From: Candidatus Saccharimonadota bacterium
GTDB lineage: Bacteria > Patescibacteriota > Saccharimonadia > Saccharimonadales > Saccharimonadaceae
DNA: 64,000 bases
Direction of reading: 5' to 3'
Assembly (NCBI GenBank): GCA_017404955.1
Contig: JAFRBH010000003.1
Span: 1 to 64,000, forward strand
Shown here piece after piece: positions 1 to 10,574 of the stretch (position 1 is its first letter; each line of letters starts with the position of its first letter). Made by a program: the position numbers and the translations under genes. The notes below the pieces were generated by a model. That model searched no databases. It saw only the letters and a list, made by a program, of their open reading frames with translations, and was not told the DNA's origin.

Positions 1-94
1 AATAGTGATGTAAACTGCGGAACAAATACTAACACAGTGATGAACTTTTTATAATTGTTAATATAGGTATCGTACTATATGATAAAACGCTGTT

Positions 95-128
95 ATTGCT
101 AGCTACTCAACTTGTACATGCTAGCAAT
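95..128 (-). terminator. Inverted repeat at the distal end of the array
   Basis: ATTGCTAGC (95-103) and GCTAGCAAT (120-128) form a perfect 9-bp stem with a 16-nt loop around the stop of K26. On the minus strand a short T-run follows at some distance, so it could be a weak terminator or an array boundary element. I see no gene in 1-106. Confidence 0.4.
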
Positions 129-376
129 GAGCCGTAGGTTACATTGCTAACGTTGATAGAGTCTCCCTTTTTTATATTTTTAATGAGCATTTGTCTACTA
201 TATCCTTCCGGATCGGAATTATTGTTCAATACGGTGCCACTTCCAGAATACGACATGTTAGCTCTTCCAGAGCCAGTAAAAATTATAGCATATAGAGCAT
301 AGTCATAATCTTTATCTGCCACAAAAGATGTCCTACTAGTGCTATAAGTACAGTACCCACTACTCTGACTGATTAC
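107..376 (-). CDS. Cassette K26 (last in the array)
   Basis: 89 codons, VISQSSGYCTYSTSRTSFVA, then DYDYALYAIIFTGSGRANM and NVTYGSLLACTS with TGA. It is a singleton. No repeat follows its stop within the remaining 106 bases, so the array probably ends here. A 9-bp inverted repeat spans the stop. Confidence 0.6.
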   Translation of the reverse strand, partial: VISQSSGYCTYSTSRTSFVADKDYDYALYAIIFTGSGRANMSYSGSGTVLNNNSDPEGYSRQMLIKNIKKGDSINVSNVTYGSLLACTS

Positions 377-379
377 ACA

Positions 380-760
380 CTAATAAATAAGATACGCATG
401 AACGCTAGCATTTGCCCTTGCGGTATAAGACAAAACCCAACTGCAGTTACTACCCTTAAACACTCCACCAGTTGCTGTTGCACTCACGTAAAAATTCAAT
501 ATACCAGTTGATTGATTATAACTCTTAATATTAGATATTGTACCTGATGCAACTCCAACATTGCAGTATAGACCTGATGCATCTCCCATCCTCGCATCAG
601 TATAATAGTTACCAGGAATTGACTTGTTGATTACTTCTGTTATGTAGAAATTGTCTGCGGTTAGCGTTGCGTAATCTACGTTTGGTGCTAAAGTTTTAAC
701 ATCAAAGCTCGTTCCAGTACCTAGATCAACTAATGTAACACCACCGCTTTGACTGATTAC
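380..760 (-). CDS. Cassette K25, KTLAP family
   Basis: 126 codons, DLGTGTSFDVKTLAPNVDY, ADNFYITEVINKSIPGNYY, SYNQSTGILNFYVSATATGG, TARANASVHAYLIY then TAG. Its distal third is the closest relative of the truncated remnant at 6776-6900. Confidence 0.65.
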   Translation of the reverse strand, partial: VISQSGGVTLVDLGTGTSFDVKTLAPNVDYATLTADNFYITEVINKSIPGNYYTDARMGDASGLYCNVGVASGTISNIKSYNQSTGILNFYVSATATGGVFKGSNCSWVLSYTARANASVHAYLIY

Positions 761-769
761 ATACTTGTT

Positions 770-1051
770 TTACTCTAATCTGAATGTAGCACTACAACTC
801 GAGGTACTCGATGCCACTACTTTAAAGGAAAGTGAGTCATCGGATATATCTACAACGTCGCCATACATTGATTTTCCGTTTAGGTATATTAGTGCGCAAC
901 TCCCGTTGAGAGATATAACGCGAGCTGTTTGCCATTGATTTTGCTCTGACATTATACTGAAGTCTGCAATCTTACTATACGCCCCGGTAGGAGCATTTGA
1001 ACCGGCACTTACTGATAATGTAAATTCAAGTGAAGAAGTCTGACTGATTAC
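770..1051 (-). CDS. Cassette K24, FEFTL/FRLE family
   Basis: 93 codons, VISQTSSLEFTLSVSAGSNA, SEQNQWQTARVISLNGSCA, VVASSTSSCSATFRLE then TAA. It is homologous to K7. Confidence 0.65.
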   Translation of the reverse strand, partial: VISQTSSLEFTLSVSAGSNAPTGAYSKIADFSIMSEQNQWQTARVISLNGSCALIYLNGKSMYGDVVDISDDSLSFKVVASSTSSCSATFRLE

Positions 1052-1055
1052 GTAA

Positions 1056-1400
1056 CTAATATACTAAATAAGCATGTACAGTAGAGGTGTTGCCAGTAGC
1101 TCCAGAACCACAGTTTGATCTAGTATAAGAATAACTATATATGGAAAAATTTAATATACCGGTAGCGGCATTGTAACTTTTAGTTTGGCTAAGACTATTA
1201 TCAACCCAGCTTGTTGTTGCGCCAGTGCCATCTTGGCAATTCTTAACAAGTGTTCCATATTGTCGGCTTGACGCATCTGTTACGCTTGACACTAGAAAAT
1301 TATCTACCGTGAAATTCTGGTACCCTGGATAAGAGCTAACATCAAAACTCGTACCAGTACCCAAATCAACTAATGTGACCCCACTACTTTGACTGATTAC
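1056..1400 (-). CDS. Cassette K23, SSYPGYQ family
   Basis: 114 codons, DLGTGTSFDVSSYPGYQNF, VDNFLVSSVTDASSRQYG, SYNAATGILNFSIYSYSYT, VHAYLVY then TAG. Confidence 0.65.
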   Translation of the reverse strand, partial: VISQSSGVTLVDLGTGTSFDVSSYPGYQNFTVDNFLVSSVTDASSRQYGTLVKNCQDGTGATTSWVDNSLSQTKSYNAATGILNFSIYSYSYTRSNCGSGATGNTSTVHAYLVY

Positions 1401-1403
1401 ACG

Positions 1404-1754
1404 CTAATAAACTAGGTACGTATGTACATCGCCGACCGCAGAACTAGACCCAGTAGCGTAGAGTTTGCCAGTCTGTTGCGCAACATAGTAAGAACCAACT
1501 GTTCCATATGCAGATAAAATACCGTTTACACTATCATATGATTTTGTTAGAACAAATGAACCTGTAGTATAATTACCAGCTGACCCACTATGACTTCCCG
1601 TTCCGTTTGCCCTACTAGAGACATCGCTTACTTCGACGATGAAATTGTCTGTAGTCAATGACGTATAGTCTACACTTGGCGCTAATGTCTTTACGTCAAA
1701 GCTCGTACCGGTCCCCAAATCAACTAACGTAACGCCTCCGCTTTGACTGATTAC
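1404..1754 (-). CDS. Cassette K22, KTLAP family
   Basis: 116 codons, DLGTGTSFDVKTLAPSVDY, TTDNFIVEVSDVSSRANGTG, SYDSVNGILSAYGTVGSYY, VHTYLVY then TAG. The site-to-stop distance is a multiple of three. Confidence 0.65.
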   Translation of the reverse strand, partial: VISQSGGVTLVDLGTGTSFDVKTLAPSVDYTSLTTDNFIVEVSDVSSRANGTGSHSGSAGNYTTGSFVLTKSYDSVNGILSAYGTVGSYYVAQQTGKLYATGSSSAVGDVHTYLVY

Positions 1755-2068
1755 CTAATTACCAAATATGCAGTGACTATTCCAGGCGTACACATTGTAT
1801 ACCAGTTTGTATAATATCCACAAGCAACAATACTAGCACTTAAGGCTCCAGTTTCACTATTGTAGTTTTTAGTTTTTACACTATATCCTCGTACCGATGT
1901 TTTCCCCCCTGTACCAGAATTGCCAGTGCTTTCGCTATTAGTTAATTCAATAATGAAATTATCAGACGTAAGTTGAGTGTAATCTACATTCGGTGCCAAA
2001 GTCTTAACATCAAAGCTCGTCCCAGTACCCAAATCAACCAATGTAACACCACCGCTTTGACTGATTAC
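1751..2068 (-). CDS. Cassette K21, KTLAP family
   Basis: 105 codons, DLGTGTSFDVKTLAPNVDY, TSDNFIIELTNSESTGNSG, YNSETGALSASIVACGYYT, AYLVIR with TAA inside the neighbouring repeat. An ATG nine bases before the site belongs to the preceding spacer and is probably fortuitous. Confidence 0.65.
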   Translation of the reverse strand, partial: VISQSGGVTLVDLGTGTSFDVKTLAPNVDYTQLTSDNFIIELTNSESTGNSGTGGKTSVRGYSVKTKNYNSETGALSASIVACGYYTNWYTMCTPGIVTAYLVIR

Positions 2069-2076
2069 ATGCCACA

Positions 2077-2442
2077 TTATTTGCCCACTATTTGTCCAAG
2101 AACTAGATAGACCTCAAATGACGGATACCCATAATTTGAGTAAGTCCAAAGATTATCACATTTCCCCCTTCCTCTTGGAGTTAAGCCACTTAGGGATAAT
2201 ATTCCAGTGGTATTGTTATAGCTTTTTGTGAGTGAACTTCCATCCAAGTATGTTTGTGGACTATTTGAGCACGACCATGCATATGATATGAAGCTACCCG
2301 AAGAAATAGAAATCGTAGAAACTATAAAATTATCTATAGTTAACGAAGAGTAATCTATGTTAGGGAGCAGACTCTTTAAGTCGAAAGAGGAACCAGTGCC
2401 TAAATAGTAGATATTACTTGCGCCACTACTCTGACTGATTAC
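2077..2442 (-). CDS. Cassette K20, YYLGTG family
   Basis: 121 codons that stay open with no ATG or GTG near the head: SGASNIYYLGTGSSFDLKSL, PNIDYSSLTIDNFIVSTI, SYNNTTGILSLSGLTPRG, YLVLGQIVGK then TAA. It is homologous to K8. Confidence 0.65.
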   Translation of the reverse strand, partial: VISQSSGASNIYYLGTGSSFDLKSLLPNIDYSSLTIDNFIVSTISISSGSFISYAWSCSNSPQTYLDGSSLTKSYNNTTGILSLSGLTPRGRGKCDNLWTYSNYGYPSFEVYLVLGQIVGK

Positions 2443-2472
2443 GTGTCAATTGGCTGTAGAAATCTGTAATTC

Positions 2473-2793
2473 TTAATTATATGCAAGATAGACATGATAG
2501 CCTGATATACTGCTACTACCACTAGAATAATTATATGTTTTGGAAACGTTATTTACTATAGTTAATATACCTGACGTGACATTATAAGAGAACACAGTAG
2601 CAGAATTTGAAAAATTATAATCACTACTACCGTAACTATCGCGATGAACACTTACATTTATTTTGGTCGAAGATCCACTAATGTAAAAATTATCCGTCGT
2701 AAAGTTTTGGTACCCAGGATACGAACTCACGTCAAAGCTCGTTCCAGTACCTAGATCAACCAGTGTAACACTACCACTGCTTTGACTGATTAC
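2473..2793 (-). CDS. Cassette K19, SSYPGYQ family
   Basis: 106 codons, SGSVTLVDLGTGTSFDVSSY, TTDNFYISGSSTKINVSVH, YNVTSGILTIVNNVSKTYN, GYHVYLAYN then TAA. About 30 bp of spacer precede the next site. Confidence 0.65.
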   Translation of the reverse strand, partial: VISQSSGSVTLVDLGTGTSFDVSSYPGYQNFTTDNFYISGSSTKINVSVHRDSYGSSDYNFSNSATVFSYNVTSGILTIVNNVSKTYNYSSGSSSISGYHVYLAYN

Positions 2794-3047
2794 GTACCAA
2801 TAACTACGTAACGTATAGTCTCGCTAGAACTACCAAACCAAGTCTTATATCCGAAAGTAGCAGACGACGCAGTTTTTCCGCTTTGATATACGCTACATCC
2901 ACTGTTGCCAGCGTTATATGCGTAATACACGGCCTCTACAGTATTAAAGCCAGAGAAATTGACAGTTACGTAATTCCAGTCGTTTCCAATAGCGCAGTAT
3001 ATCCCAATACTACCGTATAGTATTTTTTTACCGCTTTGACTGATTAC
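2790..3047 (-). CDS. Cassette K18 (shortest, start-less frame)
   Basis: 85 codons, VISQSGKKILYGSIGIYCAI, then VNFSGFNTVEAVYYAYNAGN and SSETIRYVVIGT. It has no ATG anywhere. The TAA stop is made by bases of the next repeat. Confidence 0.6.
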   Translation of the reverse strand, partial: VISQSGKKILYGSIGIYCAIGNDWNYVTVNFSGFNTVEAVYYAYNAGNSGCSVYQSGKTASSATFGYKTWFGSSSETIRYVVIGT

Positions 3048-3050
3048 GTA

Positions 3051-3437
3051 CTAATATACTAAATAAGCATGTACTGTGGTGTTTGCAGAGTTACTATAAA
3101 CTAACCTTTGGCAATTACTGCTGCAGCCAGTTTCAACAGCTCCGCCAGACCCGCTTCCTGTGATGTAAAAAGTTAAAATACCAGTTGAAGAATTATAATT
3201 TTTAGTCTCGGATATATTGCCTCCATAATAGCCCACTGGATGTCTTACGCCGCGAGCCCATCCAGCATCGGCAAATGGATAGGTTGTTGTATTTGTCGGA
3301 ATCGATGCATTGGTTACATCCGATATTAAGAAATTGTCTGTTGTAAAACTCTGATACCCTGGATAAGAGCTAACATCAAAGCTCGTCCCAGTTCCCAAAT
3401 CAACTAATGTAACACCGCCACTACTCTGACTGATTAC
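3051..3437 (-). CDS. Cassette K17, SSYPGYQ family
   Basis: 128 codons, DLGTGTSFDVSSYPGYQSF, SIPTNTTTYPFADAGWARG, YNSSTGILTFYITGSGSGG, a Cys cluster (GCSSNCQRL) and VHAYLVY then TAG. The distal two thirds match K10. Confidence 0.65.
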   Translation of the reverse strand, partial: VISQSSGGVTLVDLGTGTSFDVSSYPGYQSFTTDNFLISDVTNASIPTNTTTYPFADAGWARGVRHPVGYYGGNISETKNYNSSTGILTFYITGSGSGGAVETGCSSNCQRLVYSNSANTTVHAYLVY

Positions 3438-3823
3438 GTGTTCTTATATAGAGTTAAAGGCTTAGATATAAAATAAAAGTCGACTGATTTTGTTGGTTGA
3501 TAAGTGGTGGCCGCCGATGATGAACCATTAGTATTGCCGCACCACCCAGACATTGACCCCCTTTCGCCAACACTGAGTGTATCTCCGTTCAAGCTTAGGC
3601 CATTCAGACCAGAGAAACTTGTACCTGAGGAATATGTTCTAGCACTAACAGCAGTTCCGCTGCAGGACAAGCTCCCATTACTTATTCCACCAGCGCCATC
3701 ACCGGCGATAAAGAAATTATCAATTGTCACATTTGAAAAATTTGTAAGTATAGTAGAGACATTTACACTTGTTCCATGACCTAGATATCTGATTTCTACG
3801 TTATCGCTACTTTGACTGATTAC
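3434..3823 (-). CDS. Cassette K16, RYLGxGTSV family
   Basis: 129 codons, DNVEIRYLGHGTSVNVSTIL, TIDNFFIAGDGAGGISNGS, SGLNGLSLNGDTLSVGERGS, DFYFISKPLTLYKNT. It is homologous to K11. The stop TAA overlaps the neighbouring repeat. Confidence 0.65.
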   Translation of the reverse strand, partial: VISQSSDNVEIRYLGHGTSVNVSTILTNFSNVTIDNFFIAGDGAGGISNGSLSCSGTAVSARTYSSGTSFSGLNGLSLNGDTLSVGERGSMSGWCGNTNGSSSAATTYQPTKSVDFYFISKPLTLYKNT

Positions 3824-3888
3824 GTACTACTATAGCCCATGGCCAAATCGTTATGTAGACGATAAGCCTAAGCTTATATTTCATATAC

Positions 3889-4185
3889 TTAACTCAAGTA
3901 AATTATCCTAAGAACCCAGGTACCCCCACTTATACGTATAATATCTCCAACTTTGCAATTATGATATATGAAATATATGTTATATTGACCATTGGCATAA
4001 TTCATAAATAGCTCTGACGCGTCATTATTATTTAGTGTCACGAATGACTTTGTATAATGATTATAACCACTCTCTGATTGAGCTATGCAGATATTCCCAG
4101 AAAGACCTAGAGCGCGTGAAGCTCCTGTACCATTCAAAGTGAATGCCTCTCCAGAGACAGAGCTGATACCACTCTGACTGATTAC
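3889..4185 (-). CDS. Cassette K15 (start-less frame)
   Basis: 98 codons, VISQSGISSVSGEAFTLNG, a middle with MNYANGQYNIYFIYHN and IIRISGGTWVLRIIYLS at the end. It is a singleton. A 65-bp spacer follows its stop before the next site at 3813. Confidence 0.6.
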   Translation of the reverse strand, partial: VISQSGISSVSGEAFTLNGTGASRALGLSGNICIAQSESGYNHYTKSFVTLNNNDASELFMNYANGQYNIYFIYHNCKVGDIIRISGGTWVLRIIYLS

Positions 4186-4197
4186 ATACTAAATAAC

Positions 4198-4575
4198 TTA
4201 AGATATCCCATAAATACTTATGCTACTCTGTTTCCATAAACCGTTAGTCACATTCGTTATGAATACTTTGTCGTTATTATCCCAATCTGGTTTAACCAAG
4301 AAGACTGTTGCGTAGCCTCCACCATCCGCAGCGTTCGATGCCGCTATAGATGATTTGACAATCTTATAGTATCCACTACTGTTTGGGCCTCCAGGATTAT
4401 GAGACCTGCATATTACCGCTGATATTCCACCATCACCTGGAATAAAAAATAGTAAGCAATCGTATTGTGATATATCGGTCGTTAATGTATTTGAACCACT
4501 AGTTCCAAAAGAGAAGGATCCAAGCAGGTTTTGGTACAACCTTTCAGCCGTTATGTCGCTACTTTGACTGATTAC
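4198..4575 (-). CDS. Cassette K14 (start-less frame)
   Basis: 125 codons, VISQSSDITAERLYQNLLGS, DISQYDCLLFFIPGDGGIS, GGYATVFLVKPDWDNNDKVF, SSISIYGIS then TAA. It is a singleton, apparently a beta-rich domain. Confidence 0.6.
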   Translation of the reverse strand, partial: VISQSSDITAERLYQNLLGSFSFGTSGSNTLTTDISQYDCLLFFIPGDGGISAVICRSHNPGGPNSSGYYKIVKSSIAASNAADGGGYATVFLVKPDWDNNDKVFITNVTNGLWKQSSISIYGIS

Positions 4576-4579
4576 GTGA

Positions 4580-4882
4580 CTAATACATCAAATAAATTTT
4601 GTAATTAGATATAGAAACCTGTCTCCAATATTGTTGCACTTGCCACTTGTAATAGTTAAACACTGTTAGTACCCCTGTACTTGCATCATAATTTGTGAAA
4701 AAGTTCCTAGTGCCCATTGAACCAGCAGAATCATTGCTCCCCTCGTAAATAGAGAAGTTGCTAACTAGGAAATTATCTAGAGTTAAAGTAGTGTAATCTA
4801 CGTCCGGAGCCAAAGTTTTGATATCAAAGCTCGTCCCGGTGCCCAAATCAACCAGTGTGACACCACCACTTTGACTGTTTAC
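4580..4882 (-). CDS. Cassette K13, KTLAP family; near-duplicate of K4
   Basis: 100 codons starting at the variant site (VNSQSGG), DLGTGTSFDIKTLAPDVDY, SIYEGSNDSAGSMGTRNFF, YDASTGVLTVFNYYKW, NYKIYLMY then TAG. The frame stays open for 23 codons upstream of the site across the remnant. An ATG at 4951 could in principle start it, but no good ribosome site is seen. Confidence 0.6.
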   Translation of the reverse strand, partial: VNSQSGGVTLVDLGTGTSFDIKTLAPDVDYTTLTLDNFLVSNFSIYEGSNDSAGSMGTRNFFTNYDASTGVLTVFNYYKWQVQQYWRQVSISNYKIYLMY

Positions 4883-5009
4883 ACGCCACAATCGTACACG
4901 TCCCACCTGGACTTGTATGATAAGAGACTGCGCCGTCAACGTAAATGACAATGTTGGCTGAACTAGATTGCATAACTACCTGGTGTAATTTATTCGCTTG
5001 ATGGCTAGG
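4883..5009 (-). pseudogene. Possible truncated cassette remnant
   Basis: This 127-bp stretch between K12's stop and the site at 4872 has one open frame, reading SSANIVIYVDGAVSYHTSPG then GTCTIVA. It lacks a repeat at its head and, in this frame, a stop before the next repeat. It resembles the Cys/Thr/Ile-rich ends of other cassettes. It is probably a second deletion scar. Confidence 0.4.
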
Positions 5010-5291
5010 TTATGTCCCTTCACAATAAGCATACCATCTAATAGTGTCACTATAACCGTTAGGTACTCTGGAAAAGATTATTACACTCGTAGAAGTGGCA
5101 CTCCTGAACGCAACTGTTGTTGCGTAAGCTCCGGCCGCTGAAGCACTAGCATAGACCGTTGGTGTTGCGCAGCTAAATGGTTTTGCAAAAGTTACGGTAT
5201 GATATCTCCAACCAGAAGAATCTGTGCTTTCATAAGTAGAATATGAATAGCTGCCAGACTGATGTTCAATGCCACCACTATGACTGATTAC
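5010..5291 (-). CDS. Cassette K12 (start-less frame, VISHS variant)
   Basis: 93 codons, opens VISHSGGIEHQSGSYSYSTY (the only Gln-to-His in the site), then FAKPFSCATPTVYASASAAG and WYAYCEGT before TAA. It is a singleton. 127 bp with the tail of another frame lie between its stop and the next site. Confidence 0.6.
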   Translation of the reverse strand, partial: VISHSGGIEHQSGSYSYSTYESTDSSGWRYHTVTFAKPFSCATPTVYASASAAGAYATTVAFRSATSTSVIIFSRVPNGYSDTIRWYAYCEGT

Positions 5292-5303
5292 GTAGTAATG
5301 ATG

Positions 5304-5693
5304 CTACATATAAGTAGTTAACGGTGTGGGAACAAAATAGAAATGGGCTGACTTTGCCGATTGATATGTAGGTGTTGCTGTCGTTGTCTTATTACTATTC
5401 CGGCATGATCCAGATAATGAGCTCCTTTCGCCAATACTAAGAGTATTACCGCTTAATGATAATCCACTTAACCCAGAAAATGACGTTTGAGAATAGTAGG
5501 ATTCAGCGCTTTGGTAAGCAGACATTCCAGAGCATGAAAGACTACCACTATTTATCCCTCCAGCTCCACTACCCGCAATAAAGAAATTATCAATTGTAGC
5601 ATTAGGATATTCTGCAAGAACTGCAGAGACATCGACGCTTGTGCCATAGCCTAAATATCTAATATCTGTACTACCACCACTCTGACTGATTAC
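5304..5693 (-). CDS. Cassette K11, RYLGxGTSV family
   Basis: 129 codons, STDIRYLGYGTSVDVSAVL, TIDNFFIAGSGAGGINSGS, SGLSGLSLSGNTLSIGERSS, HFYFVPTPLTTYM. It is homologous to K16 along its length. Confidence 0.65.
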   Translation of the reverse strand, partial: VISQSGGSTDIRYLGYGTSVDVSAVLAEYPNATIDNFFIAGSGAGGINSGSLSCSGMSAYQSAESYYSQTSFSGLSGLSLSGNTLSIGERSSLSGSCRNSNKTTTATPTYQSAKSAHFYFVPTPLTTYM

Positions 5694-5696
5694 GTG

Positions 5697-6083
5697 TTAA
5701 TAAATGAGATAAGCGTGAACTGGCACATTGACGGAGTTACTATATATCAATCTTTGACAATTACTACAGCTGGTTTCAGTAGCACCACCAGAACCACTTC
5801 CTGTAATATAAAAAGATAGAATTCCTGTTGAATTGTCGTAACTTTTTGTCTCAGATACGCTTCCTCCATAGAAGCCTACTGGATGCCGTACCTTAGCCCA
5901 TCCGGCGCTAGAGAATGGGTACGTTGAAGTATTTGCTGGAATTGAGGTATCTGATATGTCTGATACAAAGAAATTATCATTAGTCAATGTTGTGTAATCT
6001 ACATTCGGTGCCAAAGCCTTAACATCAAAGCTCGTACCAGTACCTAGATCAACCAGTGTAACCCCACCACTTTGACTGATTAC
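5697..6083 (-). CDS. Cassette K10, KALAP family; homologue of K17 over the 3' part
   Basis: 128 codons. The head is of the KALAPNVDYTTL type, but the distal part (SIPANTSTYPFSSAGWAKV, HPVGFYGGSVSETKSYD, ITGSGSGGATETSCSNCQRL) matches K17, which has the SSYPGYQ head. Head and tail modules have therefore been recombined between the two. Confidence 0.65.
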   Translation of the reverse strand, partial: VISQSGGVTLVDLGTGTSFDVKALAPNVDYTTLTNDNFFVSDISDTSIPANTSTYPFSSAGWAKVRHPVGFYGGSVSETKSYDNSTGILSFYITGSGSGGATETSCSNCQRLIYSNSVNVPVHAYLIY

Positions 6084-6086
6084 GTG

Positions 6087-6422
6087 TTAATAAATGAGAT
6101 AAGCGTGGACACTTGTGGTTAATGAAGTTGTGACCGATCTCTCTGTCTTACCTCTCCAACCAGTTGCTGAACTATATATATAATAATTCAGCACTCCAGT
6201 TGCTTGAGAATAATCTTTTCTACAAGTAATACTTCCGTATACGCCATAATTGTCATTTGAGCTAGTGCCACTTGCGGTTTGATTTGGGAGATTCCCATTT
6301 TCGAAAGAGCTAATATAGAAATTATCCACCGTAAAGTTCTGATACCCAGGATATGAACTCACATTAAAGCTCGTTCCGGTGCCCAAATCAACCAGTGTAA
6401 CACCACTGCTTTGACTGATTAC
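6087..6422 (-). CDS. Cassette K9, SSYPGYQ family; near-identical to K6
   Basis: 111 codons, DLGTGTSFNVSSYPGYQNF, FENGNLPNQTASGTSSNDN, CRKDYSQATGVLNYYIYSS, VHAYLIY then TAA. It is a recent duplicate of K6 (7205-7540). Confidence 0.65.
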   Translation of the reverse strand, partial: VISQSSGVTLVDLGTGTSFNVSSYPGYQNFTVDNFYISSFENGNLPNQTASGTSSNDNYGVYGSITCRKDYSQATGVLNYYIYSSATGWRGKTERSVTTSLTTSVHAYLIY

Positions 6423-6772
6423 ATACTATTTATACTTCCAATAATGAGATATGCAAAAGTGACTACGCTTTTTGAACTTGAGGACGAAGCACCGTAGCTA
6501 CAGTATTTGTGCCCGCTAGTTGTCTCTTGATATCCTGAGATACTAAGGACGCCAGAAGAATACGATTTACCCAGTGTGAAGCCTGATGACTTAGCACATG
6601 TTACATCTACACTTGCACTAGCTGCTCCTGTAGGTGCTGACTGGGCTCCAATGATAAAATTGTCAATAGTTAATGAGGAATAGTCTATTTCTGGCAACAA
6701 TGTTTTTATGTCAAATGCTGTCCCGGTTCCGAGATAATATATTTGAGCTCCGCCGCTACTTTGACTGATTAC
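6419..6772 (-). CDS. Cassette K8, YYLGTG family
   Basis: 117 codons, GGAQIYYLGTGTAFDIKTLL then PEIDYSSLTIDNFIIGAQ, SYSSGVLSISGYQ and AYLIIGSINSM. It is homologous to K20. The stop TAA overlaps the neighbouring repeat. Confidence 0.65.
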   Translation of the reverse strand, partial: VISQSSGGAQIYYLGTGTAFDIKTLLPEIDYSSLTIDNFIIGAQSAPTGAASASVDVTCAKSSGFTLGKSYSSGVLSISGYQETTSGHKYCSYGASSSSSKSVVTFAYLIIGSINSM

Positions 6773-6775
6773 GTG

Positions 6776-6900
6776 TTAATAAATAAGATAGGCATGGACG
6801 CTAGCATTTGCTCTCGCAGTATAAGATAATATCCAGTTGCAGCTACCGCTAGAGTCTCTAGTTGCCCCACCAGTTACCGTCGCACTTACATAGAAACTTT
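6776..6900 (-). pseudogene. 5'-truncated cassette remnant
   Basis: Between K7's stop and the site at 6762 lies a fragment reading FYVSATVTGGATRDSSG, then WILSYTARANASVHAYLIY and TAA. It matches the last third of K25 (380-760; FYVSATATGG, WVLSYTARANASVHAYLIY). Its 5' part and repeat are missing. It is probably a deletion scar of array rearrangement. Confidence 0.7.
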
Positions 6901-6916
6901 GCATGTCATAAAACTA

Positions 6917-7201
6917 CTATTCGAGTCTAAATACTACTGAAAGTTTTTTACCAGCACCTTGTGTTCCGACTGTGAAAAGAACAGGACCGTTAGAGATATT
7001 AATACTATCGTTACCGGGGTAGTTACCATTTATTCTTATAACCGATGGTGGTCCATCTCCCGACATGGATACCATTTTCGCAGTTTGCCATTTATTTTGT
7101 TCTGCTGATAGCTCGAAAATTGAAGCGTGGACCTTGCCATCGCCAAGGGATGATATAGATTCTGTCAGTGTAAATTCGAAAGGCTGTGACTGACTGATTA
7201 C
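6917..7201 (-). CDS. Cassette K7, FEFTL/FRLE family
   Basis: 94 codons, VISQSQPFEFTL opening, AEQNKWQTAKMVSMSG in the middle and VVFRLE before TAG. It is homologous to K24 (SEQNQWQTARVISLNG, ATFRLE). About 140 bp containing the tail of another cassette separate its stop from the next site. Confidence 0.6.
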   Translation of the reverse strand, partial: VISQSQPFEFTLTESISSLGDGKVHASIFELSAEQNKWQTAKMVSMSGDGPPSVIRINGNYPGNDSINISNGPVLFTVGTQGAGKKLSVVFRLE

Positions 7202-7204
7202 GTT

Positions 7205-7540
7205 TTAATAGATGAGATAGACGTGGACGCTTGTGGTTAATGAAGTTGTGACCGATCTCTCTGTCTTACCTCTCCAACCAGTTGCTGAACTATATATATA
7301 ATAATTCAGCACTCCAGTTGTTTGAGAGTAATCTTTTTTACAAGTAATACTTCCGTACACGCCATAATTGTCATTTGAGCTAGTGCCACTTGCGGTTTGA
7401 TTTGGGAGATTCCCATTTTCGAAAGAGCTAATATAGAAATTATCCACCGTAAAGTTCTGATACCCAGGATACGAGCTAACATCAAAGCTCGTCCCGGTGC
7501 CCAAATCAACCAATGTAACACCACCGCTTTGACTGATTAC
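7205..7540 (-). CDS. Cassette K6, SSYPGYQ family; near-identical to K9
   Basis: 111 codons, DLGTGTSFDVSSYPGYQNF then YISSFENGNLPNQTASGTSS, CKKDYSQTTGVLNYYIYSS and VHVYLIY. It differs from K9 (6087-6422) at only a handful of nucleotides although two cassettes lie between them, so it is a recent copy. Confidence 0.65.
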   Translation of the reverse strand, partial: VISQSGGVTLVDLGTGTSFDVSSYPGYQNFTVDNFYISSFENGNLPNQTASGTSSNDNYGVYGSITCKKDYSQTTGVLNYYIYSSATGWRGKTERSVTTSLTTSVHVYLIY

Positions 7541-7830
7541 ATACTATAACACAGAGCGCTAGAGTATTTTGATGTTGTATAACTCCATTCAATATTATAA
7601 CCAGATGGGACCGATACGCTATCAATCTCACACGATGGAACTTTAGTGCTGATATGCCATTTATAGGCTGCGTAATACACACTTATATAGGCGTCAGAAA
7701 ACCCGCCAGAATTATACATATAATTACCACCGCTCCCATCTGACCTATAAACAAGTGTGGCTGTTTGATCCCCGGCCTTTGATGTTCTAACTATATAGAA
7801 ATACGCAATATCTTTACTTTGACTGATTAC
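7537..7830 (-). CDS. Cassette K5 (start-less frame)
   Basis: 97 codons, opens VISQSKDIAYFYIVRTSKAG, a singleton rich in Tyr and Ser with two Cys near the end (SCEID, LCYSM). Its TAA stop is formed by bases of the next repeat. Confidence 0.6.
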   Translation of the reverse strand, partial: VISQSKDIAYFYIVRTSKAGDQTATLVYRSDGSGGNYMYNSGGFSDAYISVYYAAYKWHISTKVPSCEIDSVSVPSGYNIEWSYTTSKYSSALCYSM

Positions 7831-7834
7831 GTGG

Positions 7835-8140
7835 CTAATACATCAAATAGATTTTGTAATTAGATATGGAAACCTGCCTCCAATAGCTTCCTACTTGCCA
7901 TCTATAGTAGTTAAATACTGTTAGTACTCCTGTGCTTGCATCGTAGTTTGTGAAAAAATTCCTAGTACCCATTGAACCAGCCTCATCATTGCTCCCCTCG
8001 TAAATAGAGAAGTTGCTAACTAGGAAATTATCTAGAGTTAAAGTAGTGTAATCCACGTCCGGTGCCAAAGCCTTGATATCAAAGCTCGTACCAGTACCTA
8101 GATCAACTAGTGTAACACTGCCACTACTTTGACTGATTAC
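7835..8140 (-). CDS. Cassette K4, KALAP family; near-duplicate of K13
   Basis: 101 codons, DLGTGTSFDIKALAPDVDY, then LDNFLVSNFSIYEGSND and NYDASTGVLTVFNYYRW, ending NYKIYLMY. It matches K13 (4580-4882) nearly throughout, with clustered differences at RWQVGSYW against KWQVQQYW. Confidence 0.65.
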   Translation of the reverse strand, partial: VISQSSGSVTLVDLGTGTSFDIKALAPDVDYTTLTLDNFLVSNFSIYEGSNDEAGSMGTRNFFTNYDASTGVLTVFNYYRWQVGSYWRQVSISNYKIYLMY

Positions 8141-8178
8141 ATACCAATACTACATTTATCCGCTTTACTAAACACTTA

Positions 8179-8490
8179 TTAATAGGTCAAATATGCATTG
8201 GTCGAAATTGTTTGCGCACGAGTATTAGCACACCCTAATGACGTCGTGATAGTTCCATATCCTTGTAATATACCAGTACTGTTATTGTACGTTTTAGTTA
8301 CAGAAAAAGTTCCAGTAGCATCATAGCCTTTGCAGCCACCACCACTTGTAGAAGCAGAGCCGCCAGAAGGAAAAACTATCATAAAGTTGTCTGCCGTAAA
8401 ATTCTGGTACCCTGGATAAGAGCTAACATCAAAGCTTGTCCCGGTGCCCAGATCAACCAATGTAACACTGCCACTACTTTGACTGATTAC
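8179..8490 (-). CDS. Cassette K3, DLGTGTSFDVSSYPGYQ family
   Basis: 103 codons, VISQSSGSVTLVDLGTGTSF opening, then SSYPGYQNFTADNF, a Gly/Ser-rich variable stretch, the shared TYNNSTGIL motif and NAYLTY before TAA. About 38 bp of extra sequence separate its stop from the next site at 8130. Confidence 0.65.
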   Translation of the reverse strand, partial: VISQSSGSVTLVDLGTGTSFDVSSYPGYQNFTADNFMIVFPSGGSASTSGGGCKGYDATGTFSVTKTYNNSTGILQGYGTITTSLGCANTRAQTISTNAYLTY

Positions 8491-8491
8491 A

Positions 8492-8797
8492 CTACGATAA
8501 TGTTATGGATGCCTGGCATTGACTATAATTTTTGCTACCGTAAACATATAGGTCGATCTGTACGGCCTTATTATAGACATCATACGATTTGACACTAAGA
8601 TTACCATTGCTTTCTCCTTCTAGGTGAATATACTTGGCACCACATGACCCGCTGATGGAATTTATAGTTAACAAAGAGAAAGAATGAGTGCTATCTAGTG
8701 CAAAATAACCTGCGCCAACATTTAAACCGGACGAGTTTCCGGAACTACCTGTCAACGTAAAAGTTAGACCTCCGGTGGGATTACTCTGACTGATTAC
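8492..8797 (-). CDS. Cassette K2 (start-less frame)
   Basis: 101 codons, begins VISQSNPTGGLTFTLTG, ends CQASITLS then TAG. It is a singleton; the FTLTG opening weakly recalls the FEFTL family (K7, K24). The site-to-stop distance is a multiple of three. Confidence 0.6.
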   Translation of the reverse strand, partial: VISQSNPTGGLTFTLTGSSGNSSGLNVGAGYFALDSTHSFSLLTINSISGSCGAKYIHLEGESNGNLSVKSYDVYNKAVQIDLYVYGSKNYSQCQASITLS

Positions 8798-9108
8798 ATA
8801 ATAATCAAATATAAATCATATATGACACTTGCTCTCGCATTTGGTCCAGCGGTAGGGTAATATACAAATGCCCTCGGGATTGTAAGGGTGCAACTGGTCG
8901 TGTCATACTCAATTTCTGCCTGTGATCCATAATTCTCATCCTTGCCAGTAGAGGGGGCTTGTGCCATTCCAATGTTTCTATACCAAAAGTTATCTTTTGA
9001 AAGATAAGTACATTGTGAATAATAATTATGTATATCATATGTCCGTACGCTATCTGAGTATAAACGTTGACCAATCCGTACTTGCATAGGTTGCGTTTGA
9101 CTGTTTAC
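8794..9108 (-). CDS. Cassette K1 (start-less frame, array head)
   Basis: 104 codons from the variant site (reads VNSQTQP) to TAA, whose bases lie in the next site. It is a singleton, rich in Tyr and aromatic residues, with VYYPTAGPNARASVIYD near the end. Reading upstream in frame there are about 20 codons and then TGA at 9172-9174, with only a TTG (9153) as a conceivable start. It therefore does not look like a complete expressed gene. It is the first cassette in reading order, next to the array edge. Confidence 0.6.
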   Translation of the reverse strand, partial: VNSQTQPMQVRIGQRLYSDSVRTYDIHNYYSQCTYLSKDNFWYRNIGMAQAPSTGKDENYGSQAEIEYDTTSCTLTIPRAFVYYPTAGPNARASVIYDLYLIIM

Positions 9109-9282: not shown

Positions 9283-9311
9283 GAGTTTTCCACAGGGGCG
9301 GTGGAAAACTC
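9283..9311. terminator. Perfect hairpin between array and dcw region
   Basis: GAGTTTTCCAC (9283-9293) pairs perfectly with GTGGAAAACTC (9301-9311) across a 7-nt loop. There is no strong T-run on either side. It lies in the 200-bp gap between the array edge and the promoter at 9352. It may insulate the two units. Confidence 0.4.
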
Positions 9312-9698: not shown

Positions 9699-10574
9699 AT
9701 GGAAGAACACCACAAACCAGTGTTACTCAAGGAAGTATTGCGAGTGCTTGATCCTAAACTCGGTGAATCTTATTTAGATTTGACTGCCGGTTACGCAGGT
9801 CACGCCAGTAGAATTTTGGGTGTAACGCGGAACTATAAAGATTCCTGTCTAGTGGACAGGGATGATTATGCGGTGGAAATCTTGAAATCGAAGTACGAAA
9901 GTGAAGAAATTAAGATTTTGCATATGGAATTTTATAGTGCGGCGCTACAACTTTTACAGTGTGGAAATACTTTCGATATGATACTCGCTGATTTTGGGGT
10001 GTCTTCTCCGCAACTGGACCAAGGAGATAGAGGTTTTTCTTTCTCTAAAGAAGGTGCTCTCGATATGCGTATGGACAGACGGCAGAACCTGACTGCCGCT
10101 GAGATTGTAAATAAATGGAGCGAGAGGGAATTAATAGAGATTTTTGAAAAATATGGAGAAATGAGCCCAGGGTTTTCTAGAAAAGTTGCAAAGATTATCG
10201 TGACTTCTAGGCCGTTTACGAATACATTGGAACTTGCAGATGCGATCGCGGGAAATGCTAGACATACTCGCATACATCCAGCAACCAAAGCATTCCAGGC
10301 AATTAGAATTGTAGTTAATGATGAACTTGTGCAAATTGAGAAAACCTTACCACTTCTGCCAAAGTTACTTAATAAGGGCGGCAGGCTTGCGATCATCACC
10401 TTCCATAGTTTAGAAGATAGATTAGTAAAAGATTATTTCAAAGAGGCATCTAGCCTTGGAGAAGAATCGAAACTAAAACTAATTAATAAAAACCCAATTG
10501 TTGCGGAGAAAGTGGAGCTAGTTAACAACCCACGCGCACGTAGTGCAAAACTTCGCGCAGCCGTGGTTTGTTAA
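9699..10574 (+). CDS. rsmH: 16S rRNA (cytosine1402-N4)-methyltransferase
   Basis: RsmH (MraW) methylates C1402 of 16S rRNA in the ribosomal P site using S-adenosylmethionine. The 291-aa length is near the family norm. HHKPVLLKEVLRVL at the N-terminus, the SAM-binding LDLTAGYAGHAS loop, DFGVSSPQLDQGDRGFSF and the C-terminal NNPRARSAKLRA tail are all diagnostic. As in most bacteria it opens the dcw cluster, though no mraZ precedes it. TACAAT (9686-9691) ends 7 nt before the ATG and no Shine-Dalgarno site is visible, so the message is probably leaderless. Confidence 0.95.
   Translation: MEEHHKPVLLKEVLRVLDPKLGESYLDLTAGYAGHASRILGVTRNYKDSCLVDRDDYAVEILKSKYESEEIKILHMEFYSAALQLLQCGNTFDMILADFGVSSPQLDQGDRGFSFSKEGALDMRMDRRQNLTAAEIVNKWSERELIEIFEKYGEMSPGFSRKVAKIIVTSRPFTNTLELADAIAGNARHTRIHPATKAFQAIRIVVNDELVQIEKTLPLLPKLLNKGGRLAIITFHSLEDRLVKDYFKEASSLGEESKLKLINKNPIVAEKVELVNNPRARSAKLRAAVVC

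Follow-up and report, generated by a model that had tools for sequence, protein, structure and literature searches.

Several described systems change a bacterial surface protein by rearranging DNA. In the R64-type shufflon, the invertase Rci acts at the sfx site, which is asymmetric, and this asymmetry is held to limit Rci to inversion (PMC11852207). In Mycoplasma pulmonis, one enzyme (HvsR) serves the hsd and the vsa loci (PMC2268961), and this precedent makes an enzyme with two or more targets possible. Diversity-generating retroelements have been reported from genomes of the candidate phyla radiation (PMC10221324), and a single hypervariable repeat gene has been described in a Gracilibacterium (PMC6851277). 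In the open-access literature on phase variation, inversion, integrons, and surface recombination in Saccharibacteria and Patescibacteria, we found nothing of the kind reported below. Here we analyzed a 64,000-nucleotide stretch (the window) from a Candidatus Saccharimonadota bacterium, which holds 26 start-less cassettes sharing a short core sequence. On balance, we favor the reading that they belong to a shufflon-like switchable adhesin that works via site-specific inversion at this core. The window covers the initial 64 kb of contig C9 in a 718-kb, 13-contig, 99.6% complete genome (G000; G numbers denote genomes, C contigs, and L fetched stretches).

A search of the window for the core GTAATCAGTCA, allowing at most one mismatch, returned 26 matches between positions 366 and 9108, every one on the minus strand. 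Chance would provide about 0.9 matches in the whole window, and no shuffled sequence attained 26. The one-orientation array described in the original prediction is therefore real. It comprises 26 head-to-tail cassettes, K1 to K26, at window positions 107-9108 on the minus strand, with core-to-core units of 254-429 bp. Every core opens GTA-ATC-AGT-CA in one frame, all 26 frames start with V-I/N-S-Q/H, and the frame stays open for 85-129 codons after each core before reaching a stop. The earlier statement that each cassette ends in its own stop beside the next core applies to most units, where the stop is at most 12 bp from the following core and often overlaps it by 4 bp, but not to K3, K7, K12, K15, and K19, where 30-144 bp intervene. 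The leftover DNA in K7 and K12 consists of core-less tails of older cassettes, that of K7 being the 3' half of a K25-like cassette. In agreement with the proposed lack of start signals, a Shine-Dalgarno (SD) sequence with a start codon was found near the core in none of the 26 cassettes (two chance matches sit 16-18 codons inside), and promoter-like matches within the array were not above chance level. The cassettes are listed below in window coordinates.

8798..9108, minus strand: K1, 104 aa; array end beside rsmH; core variant GTAAACAGTCA, as in the expression gene
8491..8797, minus strand: K2, 101 aa; singleton
8141..8490, minus strand: K3, 103 aa; DLGTGTSFDV family
7831..8140, minus strand: K4, 101 aa; DLGTGTSFDV family; equals the copy on the C4 expression gene over the 114 bp available
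7541..7830, minus strand: K5, 97 aa; singleton
7202..7540, minus strand: K6, 111 aa; DLGTGTSFDV family; 95% identity to K9 core to core
6773..7201, minus strand: K7, 94 aa; plus the core-less 3' half of a K25-like cassette
6423..6772, minus strand: K8, 117 aa; DLGTGTSFDV family
6084..6422, minus strand: K9, 111 aa; near-copy of K6
5694..6083, minus strand: K10, 128 aa; DLGTGTSFDV family; modeled as a mostly beta domain
5292..5693, minus strand: K11, 129 aa; divergent DLGTGTSFDV-family member; pairs with K16
4883..5291, minus strand: K12, 93 aa; modeled as a six-strand beta domain; plus a remnant of an older cassette
4576..4882, minus strand: K13, 100 aa; K4 copy (87%); core variant GTAAACAGTCA
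4186..4575, minus strand: K14, 125 aa; singleton
3824..4185, minus strand: K15, 98 aa; singleton
3438..3823, minus strand: K16, 129 aa; pairs with K11
3048..3437, minus strand: K17, 128 aa; DLGTGTSFDV family; pairs with K10
2794..3047, minus strand: K18, 85 aa; singleton
2443..2793, minus strand: K19, 106 aa; DLGTGTSFDV family
2069..2442, minus strand: K20, 121 aa; DLGTGTSFDV family
1755..2068, minus strand: K21, 105 aa; DLGTGTSFDV family
1401..1754, minus strand: K22, 116 aa; DLGTGTSFDV family
1052..1400, minus strand: K23, 114 aa; DLGTGTSFDV family
761..1051, minus strand: K24, 93 aa; homologue of K7
377..760, minus strand: K25, 126 aa; DLGTGTSFDV family
107..376, minus strand: K26, 89 aa; outermost complete cassette, nearest the contig end

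When the whole genome was searched for the core at the same threshold, a single site outside the array emerged, at C4:106-119. It lies in the frame of a gene on the minus strand (C4:120-1403), hereafter the expression gene, which encodes a stalk of ~428 aa followed in frame by the core variant GTAAACAGTCA; the open frame spanning this core amounts to 494 aa and is unbroken to the contig end. The gene is preceded by the promoter TTGACA-18-TATAAT, a 12/12 sigma-70 match with an extended -10 element, and by the SD sequence AGGGAGATAAGG ahead of its ATG. By inspection, the product has an N-terminal hydrophobic signal or transmembrane segment; the stalk matched IPT/TIG marginally (E = 0.0009), which falls short of the Pfam cut-off. 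The expressed upstream frame running into the core that the original prediction called for thus exists. Past core position 5, the C4 copy is identical to K4 over all 114 bases remaining before the contig end, whereas other cassettes differ from it at 42 or more places, and the DNAs upstream of the C4 core and of K4 are unrelated. Since the identity begins at the core and the upstream sequences are unrelated, K4 or a copy of it was joined to the stalk precisely there. These data support the view that the cassettes serve as a stock of spare C termini for a surface protein. Stalk and tip would be displayed on the surface and bind a host.

Further observations concern this gene and other surface genes of the genome. 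Between promoter and start codon (C4:1404-1460), there are repeated TAATGTTATT-type motifs, which are operator-like. A second stalk paralogue (C13:1-1425) runs off its contig end into what is, by inspection, a FISUMP-like C terminus. Several other contig ends of the genome overlap one another, apparently in repeated surface-protein sequence, so that the assembly seems to break at surface genes.

We then considered the core itself. The codons GTA, ATC, and AGT are invariant except in two cassettes, in which the variant GTAAACAGTCA carries A at position 5 (9098-9108 and 4872-4882). Elsewhere in the array, these codons account for 32, 15, and 28% of Val, Ile, and Ser codons, respectively, and the naive chance of such core conservation is 1e-45. 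Because the wobble bases are fixed although the codons are minor ones elsewhere in the cassettes, the core is conserved as DNA. Directly upstream, 22 of 26 cores carry RNYRY, compared with a background of 6.7%, including all nine cores with non-coding upstream DNA (3e-11). Downstream, there is a weak extension, RAG. The full site, RNYRY-GTAATCAGTCA-RAG, is ~19 bp long and asymmetric, with one strong and one loose side; the conserved core with its upstream RNYRY looks like a protein-binding site.

The cassettes fall into protein families of unequal size. Sixteen of the 26 belong to the DLGTGTSFDV family, in line with the earlier observation that many share this head; K7 and K24 form one pair, and eight are unrelated singletons that have little beyond the core (~14-19 bp) in common with other cassettes. 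Within the DLGTGTSFDV family, ~60 bp after the core are conserved at 80-97% identity. In the duplicates K6/K9 (95%) and K4/K13 (87%), homology extends exactly from core to next core, and the flanks are at random level. Cassettes move or are copied as single core-to-core units, because these duplicates end exactly at the cores.

The same data bear on gene conversion, a vls- or pilE/pilS-like process in which RecA-type recombination would write single cassettes into the expression gene and leave the array intact. That K4 occurs twice, once in the array and once behind the stalk, with 114 bp of identity, is what such copying would leave; all 26 cassettes still face one way, and the main family offers its ~60 bp of high identity after the core. 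However, 10 of the 26 cassettes lie outside that family, and their shared core of ~14-19 bp is short for homologous recombination. The resemblance of the core and RNYRY to a protein-binding site and the exact ends of the duplicates also argue against this explanation. We consider inversion most likely and rank gene conversion second, as a possible but doubtful alternative.

Inversion needs a core in the opposite orientation, and neighboring genes point to one. In the present genome, the expression gene at the C4 end has ppa and glyS as neighbors, and the array at the C9 end has rsmH. In all seven relatives in which both ppa and rsmH were found (G032, G113, G144, G019, G084, G030, and G073), the two are divergent neighbors. 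In five of these relatives, 527-587 bp separate the start codons; in the two with inserts, the distances are 4.9 and 8.6 kb. Because ppa adjoins rsmH in these relatives, the C4 and C9 ends very probably adjoin, making gene and array one locus in which they face each other. The order is very probably ppa(<-), gene(->), gap, array(<-) of 26 cassettes, rsmH(->). Three further features border the array.

1..54, plus strand: open frame NSDVNCGTNTNTVMNFL*, by translation only; may be the 3' end of a cassette oriented opposite to K26 and lying tail to tail with it
9283..9311, minus strand: terminator-like hairpin with an 11-bp stem, between array and rsmH
9699..10574, plus strand: rsmH (mraW), right border of the locus

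The frame at 1..54 has 17 open codons, a length that is not significant alone; it may represent the end of an oppositely directed cassette, which is expected under the facing layout, and is weak as evidence. The hairpin could shield the array from outside transcription.

The inferred facing orientation is also relevant to the idea that the array is a graveyard of displaced C termini with no working switch, as in rhs/cdiA. The cassettes are indeed start-less C-terminal fragments, some of them decayed (the K7 and K12 remnants), and rhs loci bear long arrays of dissociated tips (PMC2935791). In the rhs/cdi layout, however, tips lie downstream in the same orientation and with immunity genes, whereas here the orientation is very probably the opposite one and the cassettes abut, with no room for such genes. 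Furthermore, 26 cassettes are open and in frame, an 11-14-bp site is kept even at wobble positions, and an exact copy of K4 is in use. We regard this explanation as the least probable of those considered.

In the inversion model that we prefer, the gene for the membrane-anchored stalk would read through the core GTAAACAGTCA into whichever cassette sits behind it, and the joined cassette would provide a receptor-binding tip of ~85-130 aa together with the stop codon. The 26 window cassettes would form a silent reserve, promoter-less and start-less, in the same locus and facing the gene. A site-specific recombinase, probably Xer-like, would act at RNYRY-GTAATCAGTCA-RAG and invert the DNA between the gene core and the core of any silent cassette, so that this cassette continues the reading frame of the stalk. 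The array would grow by copying of single core-to-core units and would have taken up tip domains common to phage tail fibers. Site-specific recombination, its inversion mode, and the identity of the recombinase are inferred parts of this model; the organism can probably change what it sticks to by DNA shuffling at a 14-bp site.

The original prediction had taken the absence of inverted cassettes as an argument against inversion. This argument fails, as the gene very probably faces the array and a simulation yields a one-way array. When inversions were permitted solely between opposite cores, the simulated locus always showed a single forward run and, after it, a single reverse run; each of the 27 cassettes came to occupy the expression position. 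A one-way silent array is thus expected, because inversion-only shuffling keeps the silent cassettes in one orientation.

Several points weigh against inversion. In the simulation, a silent reverse run of 26 of 27 cassettes occupied only 0.8% of the time; this rarity implies that switching is rare or biased, that more cassettes lie in the gap, or that copying is involved. The presence of K4 both in the array and behind the stalk would require two states mixed within the sample, a duplicate, or a gene-conversion copy. The C4-C9 junction falls in an assembly gap, and the ppa-rsmH order was unreadable in the other relatives fetched, where motifs were unmatched or the stretch was cut. Finally, the genome encodes two tyrosine recombinases (PF00589), both unlinked to the array, and no serine recombinase or Piv-type family was found in the assembly. 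The earlier remark that no recombinase is in view therefore stands for the surroundings of the array but not for the genome.

One of the two recombinases is a general housekeeping-type Xer beside ndk. The other (C8:10137-11437) adjoins a tRNA 3' end and is of the island-integrase type, with homologues of at least 56% identity in about 15 genomes of the genus. The C8 gene and its homologues (L175-L188) are tRNA-linked, with a small upstream gene; the cargo in relatives is varied and includes hsdM/hsdS-like and methyltransferase genes, and several contigs end at the integrase gene or just upstream of it. We rejected the C8 integrase as the switch enzyme: with its tRNA 3' end and the varied cargo in relatives it looks like an island integrase, and no site resembling the core adjoins it.

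Integron-like traffic, in which cassette circles are excised at direct cores and re-inserted at the core of the expression site, would be compatible with the two Xer-like enzymes and with a head-to-tail array with single-unit duplicates at distant positions. Yet both enzymes score far below the integron-integrase cut-off (TIGR02249); by inspection, the core is GTAATCA rather than GTTRRRY-type, and the sole strongly conserved block is ~19 bp. In addition, the expression gene very probably faces the array rather than leading into it. We therefore consider integron-like traffic improbable.

The array was present in 1 of 174 genomes of the genus, the one studied here. The same core was absent from the 173 others, bar one chance match in G180, and the cassette profile gave one weak match elsewhere in the genus (G097) and nothing else. 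Neither the core array nor the cassette family occurred in 392 further genomes of the order, and no arrays were found in relatives near integrases, near rsmH, or near stalk homologues. The stalk recurs in G032 and G075, where a single, fixed tip of ~100 aa is attached at the same position, behind the same EGYHxxQ linker.

FISUMP or related surface genes lie beside an RVT_1 reverse transcriptase in three stretches of two relatives: L224 (G073 C17, 6698-11082), L226 (G069 C29, 3298-5977), and L192 (G069 C13, 942-4815). In G073 the position is the ppa-rsmH site, and in G069 it is next to rsmH. These loci are likely candidate diversity-generating retroelements, judged by their gene content, where the present genome has its array. 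A single genomic site seems to have acquired diversification systems of different kinds, because relatives place other surface proteins, two with reverse transcriptase, at ppa-rsmH. No reverse transcriptase was seen beside the array or the expression gene on inspection of open reading frames; the whole genome was not searched for one.

Searches of the cassettes against Pfam and PHROGs gave nothing reliable. An assignment of K12 as an H-type lectin or gp53-like tip was dropped (best E = 0.96); its single-sequence model (pLDDT 69) had weak Protein Data Bank (PDB) matches at most. The K10 model (pLDDT 77) matched two uncharacterized siphovirus proteins in BFVD (E = 2e-5 and 2e-4) and no PDB entry with E < 0.001. 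IMG/VR contigs and genomes of Clostridia and Lachnospiraceae contained the main cassette family (A1). The core with the head was absent from IMG/VR, as were K12, K14, and K26, and no cassettes were found in annotated phage records. In Lachnospiraceae prophage fiber loci, spare tips lie at an inverted 23-24-bp site. By sequence homology, the main family is related to these spare tail-fiber tips of prophage shufflons, and short stalk repeats are alike between the relative G075 and prophage fibers. In one such prophage (L105, 1-6817), a fiber gene beside Baseplate_J and Mu gp48 proteins faces one spare tip. A 24-bp inverted site forms the entry to the gene's own tip and the spare one alike, and the neighboring gene encodes a tyrosine recombinase. 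A second prophage fiber locus (L111, 7400-10843) has two spare tips, one per orientation.

Type IV pili are so far the best-studied candidates for host recognition by Patescibacteria-type epibionts (PMC12206443). One displayed stalk with at least 26 interchangeable tips would be a concrete, testable host-range determinant for epibiont host choice and change, and the locus suggests that epibiont and phages draw on one pool of bacterial-surface-binding tips. It also shows how a head-to-tail array can arise from pure inversion. More speculatively, an obligate epibiont may have used phage tail-fiber tip modules to build a switch for host recognition with 26 tips or more, driven by an unlinked housekeeping-type Xer at a ~19-bp in-frame site, with cells of one population showing different tips to track different host bacteria.

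The closest described systems share parts of this arrangement. The Lachnospiraceae prophage shufflons (L105 and L111) have a homologous A1 tip and spare tips entered at a short site, some facing the gene, but differ in having one to few spare tips, the site TTAGGACGAAAAATAGTAATTTA, a recombinase next door, and a place in the phage tail. The R64-type shufflon (pilV, Rci, sfx) likewise has one expressed gene, spare C-terminal segments, and a site inside the coding frame that is short and asymmetric, with one conserved and one variable side (PMC11852207). R64 has four segments between seven sites, whereas here there are at least 26 cassettes in one orientation, of unrelated sequence, on a presumed epibiont chromosome and with no adjacent recombinase seen. 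Of the hallmarks of a shufflon, the locus has the constant gene with in-frame alternative C termini and the short asymmetric site but no dedicated adjacent tyrosine recombinase in the assembled sequence, both PF00589 genes being unlinked; a further gene may lie in the assembly gap.

Borrelia vls and Neisseria pilE/pilS also combine a start-less cassette array with one expression site. They work by segmental conversion among homologous cassettes, whereas here many cassettes are unrelated (eight singletons and one separate pair among 26) and movement is apparently of whole units at the core. An integron shares the head-to-tail array and the one recombination site per unit, but here the units are C-terminal protein parts instead of genes, and there is neither an integron integrase nor an attC-type core. 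Mycoplasma vsa/vpma (HvsR, Xer1) resembles the locus in Xer-family inversion of surface genes, one active promoter, and a reduced genome; hsd loci are a further target of HvsR (PMC2268961), and C8-integrase homologues adjoin hsdM/hsdS-like genes in relatives. The vpma genes differ in having their own starts, a site in the 5' untranslated region, and a recombinase near the locus; no sequence homology was seen, nor was any tested for. Contrary to the original proposal, the system is not of a new kind: it would work like a shufflon or Mycoplasma vsa, and its cassette family also occurs in prophage tail-fiber shufflons. It is best read as a shufflon-like switch of receptor-binding tips, the first that we found for this lineage.

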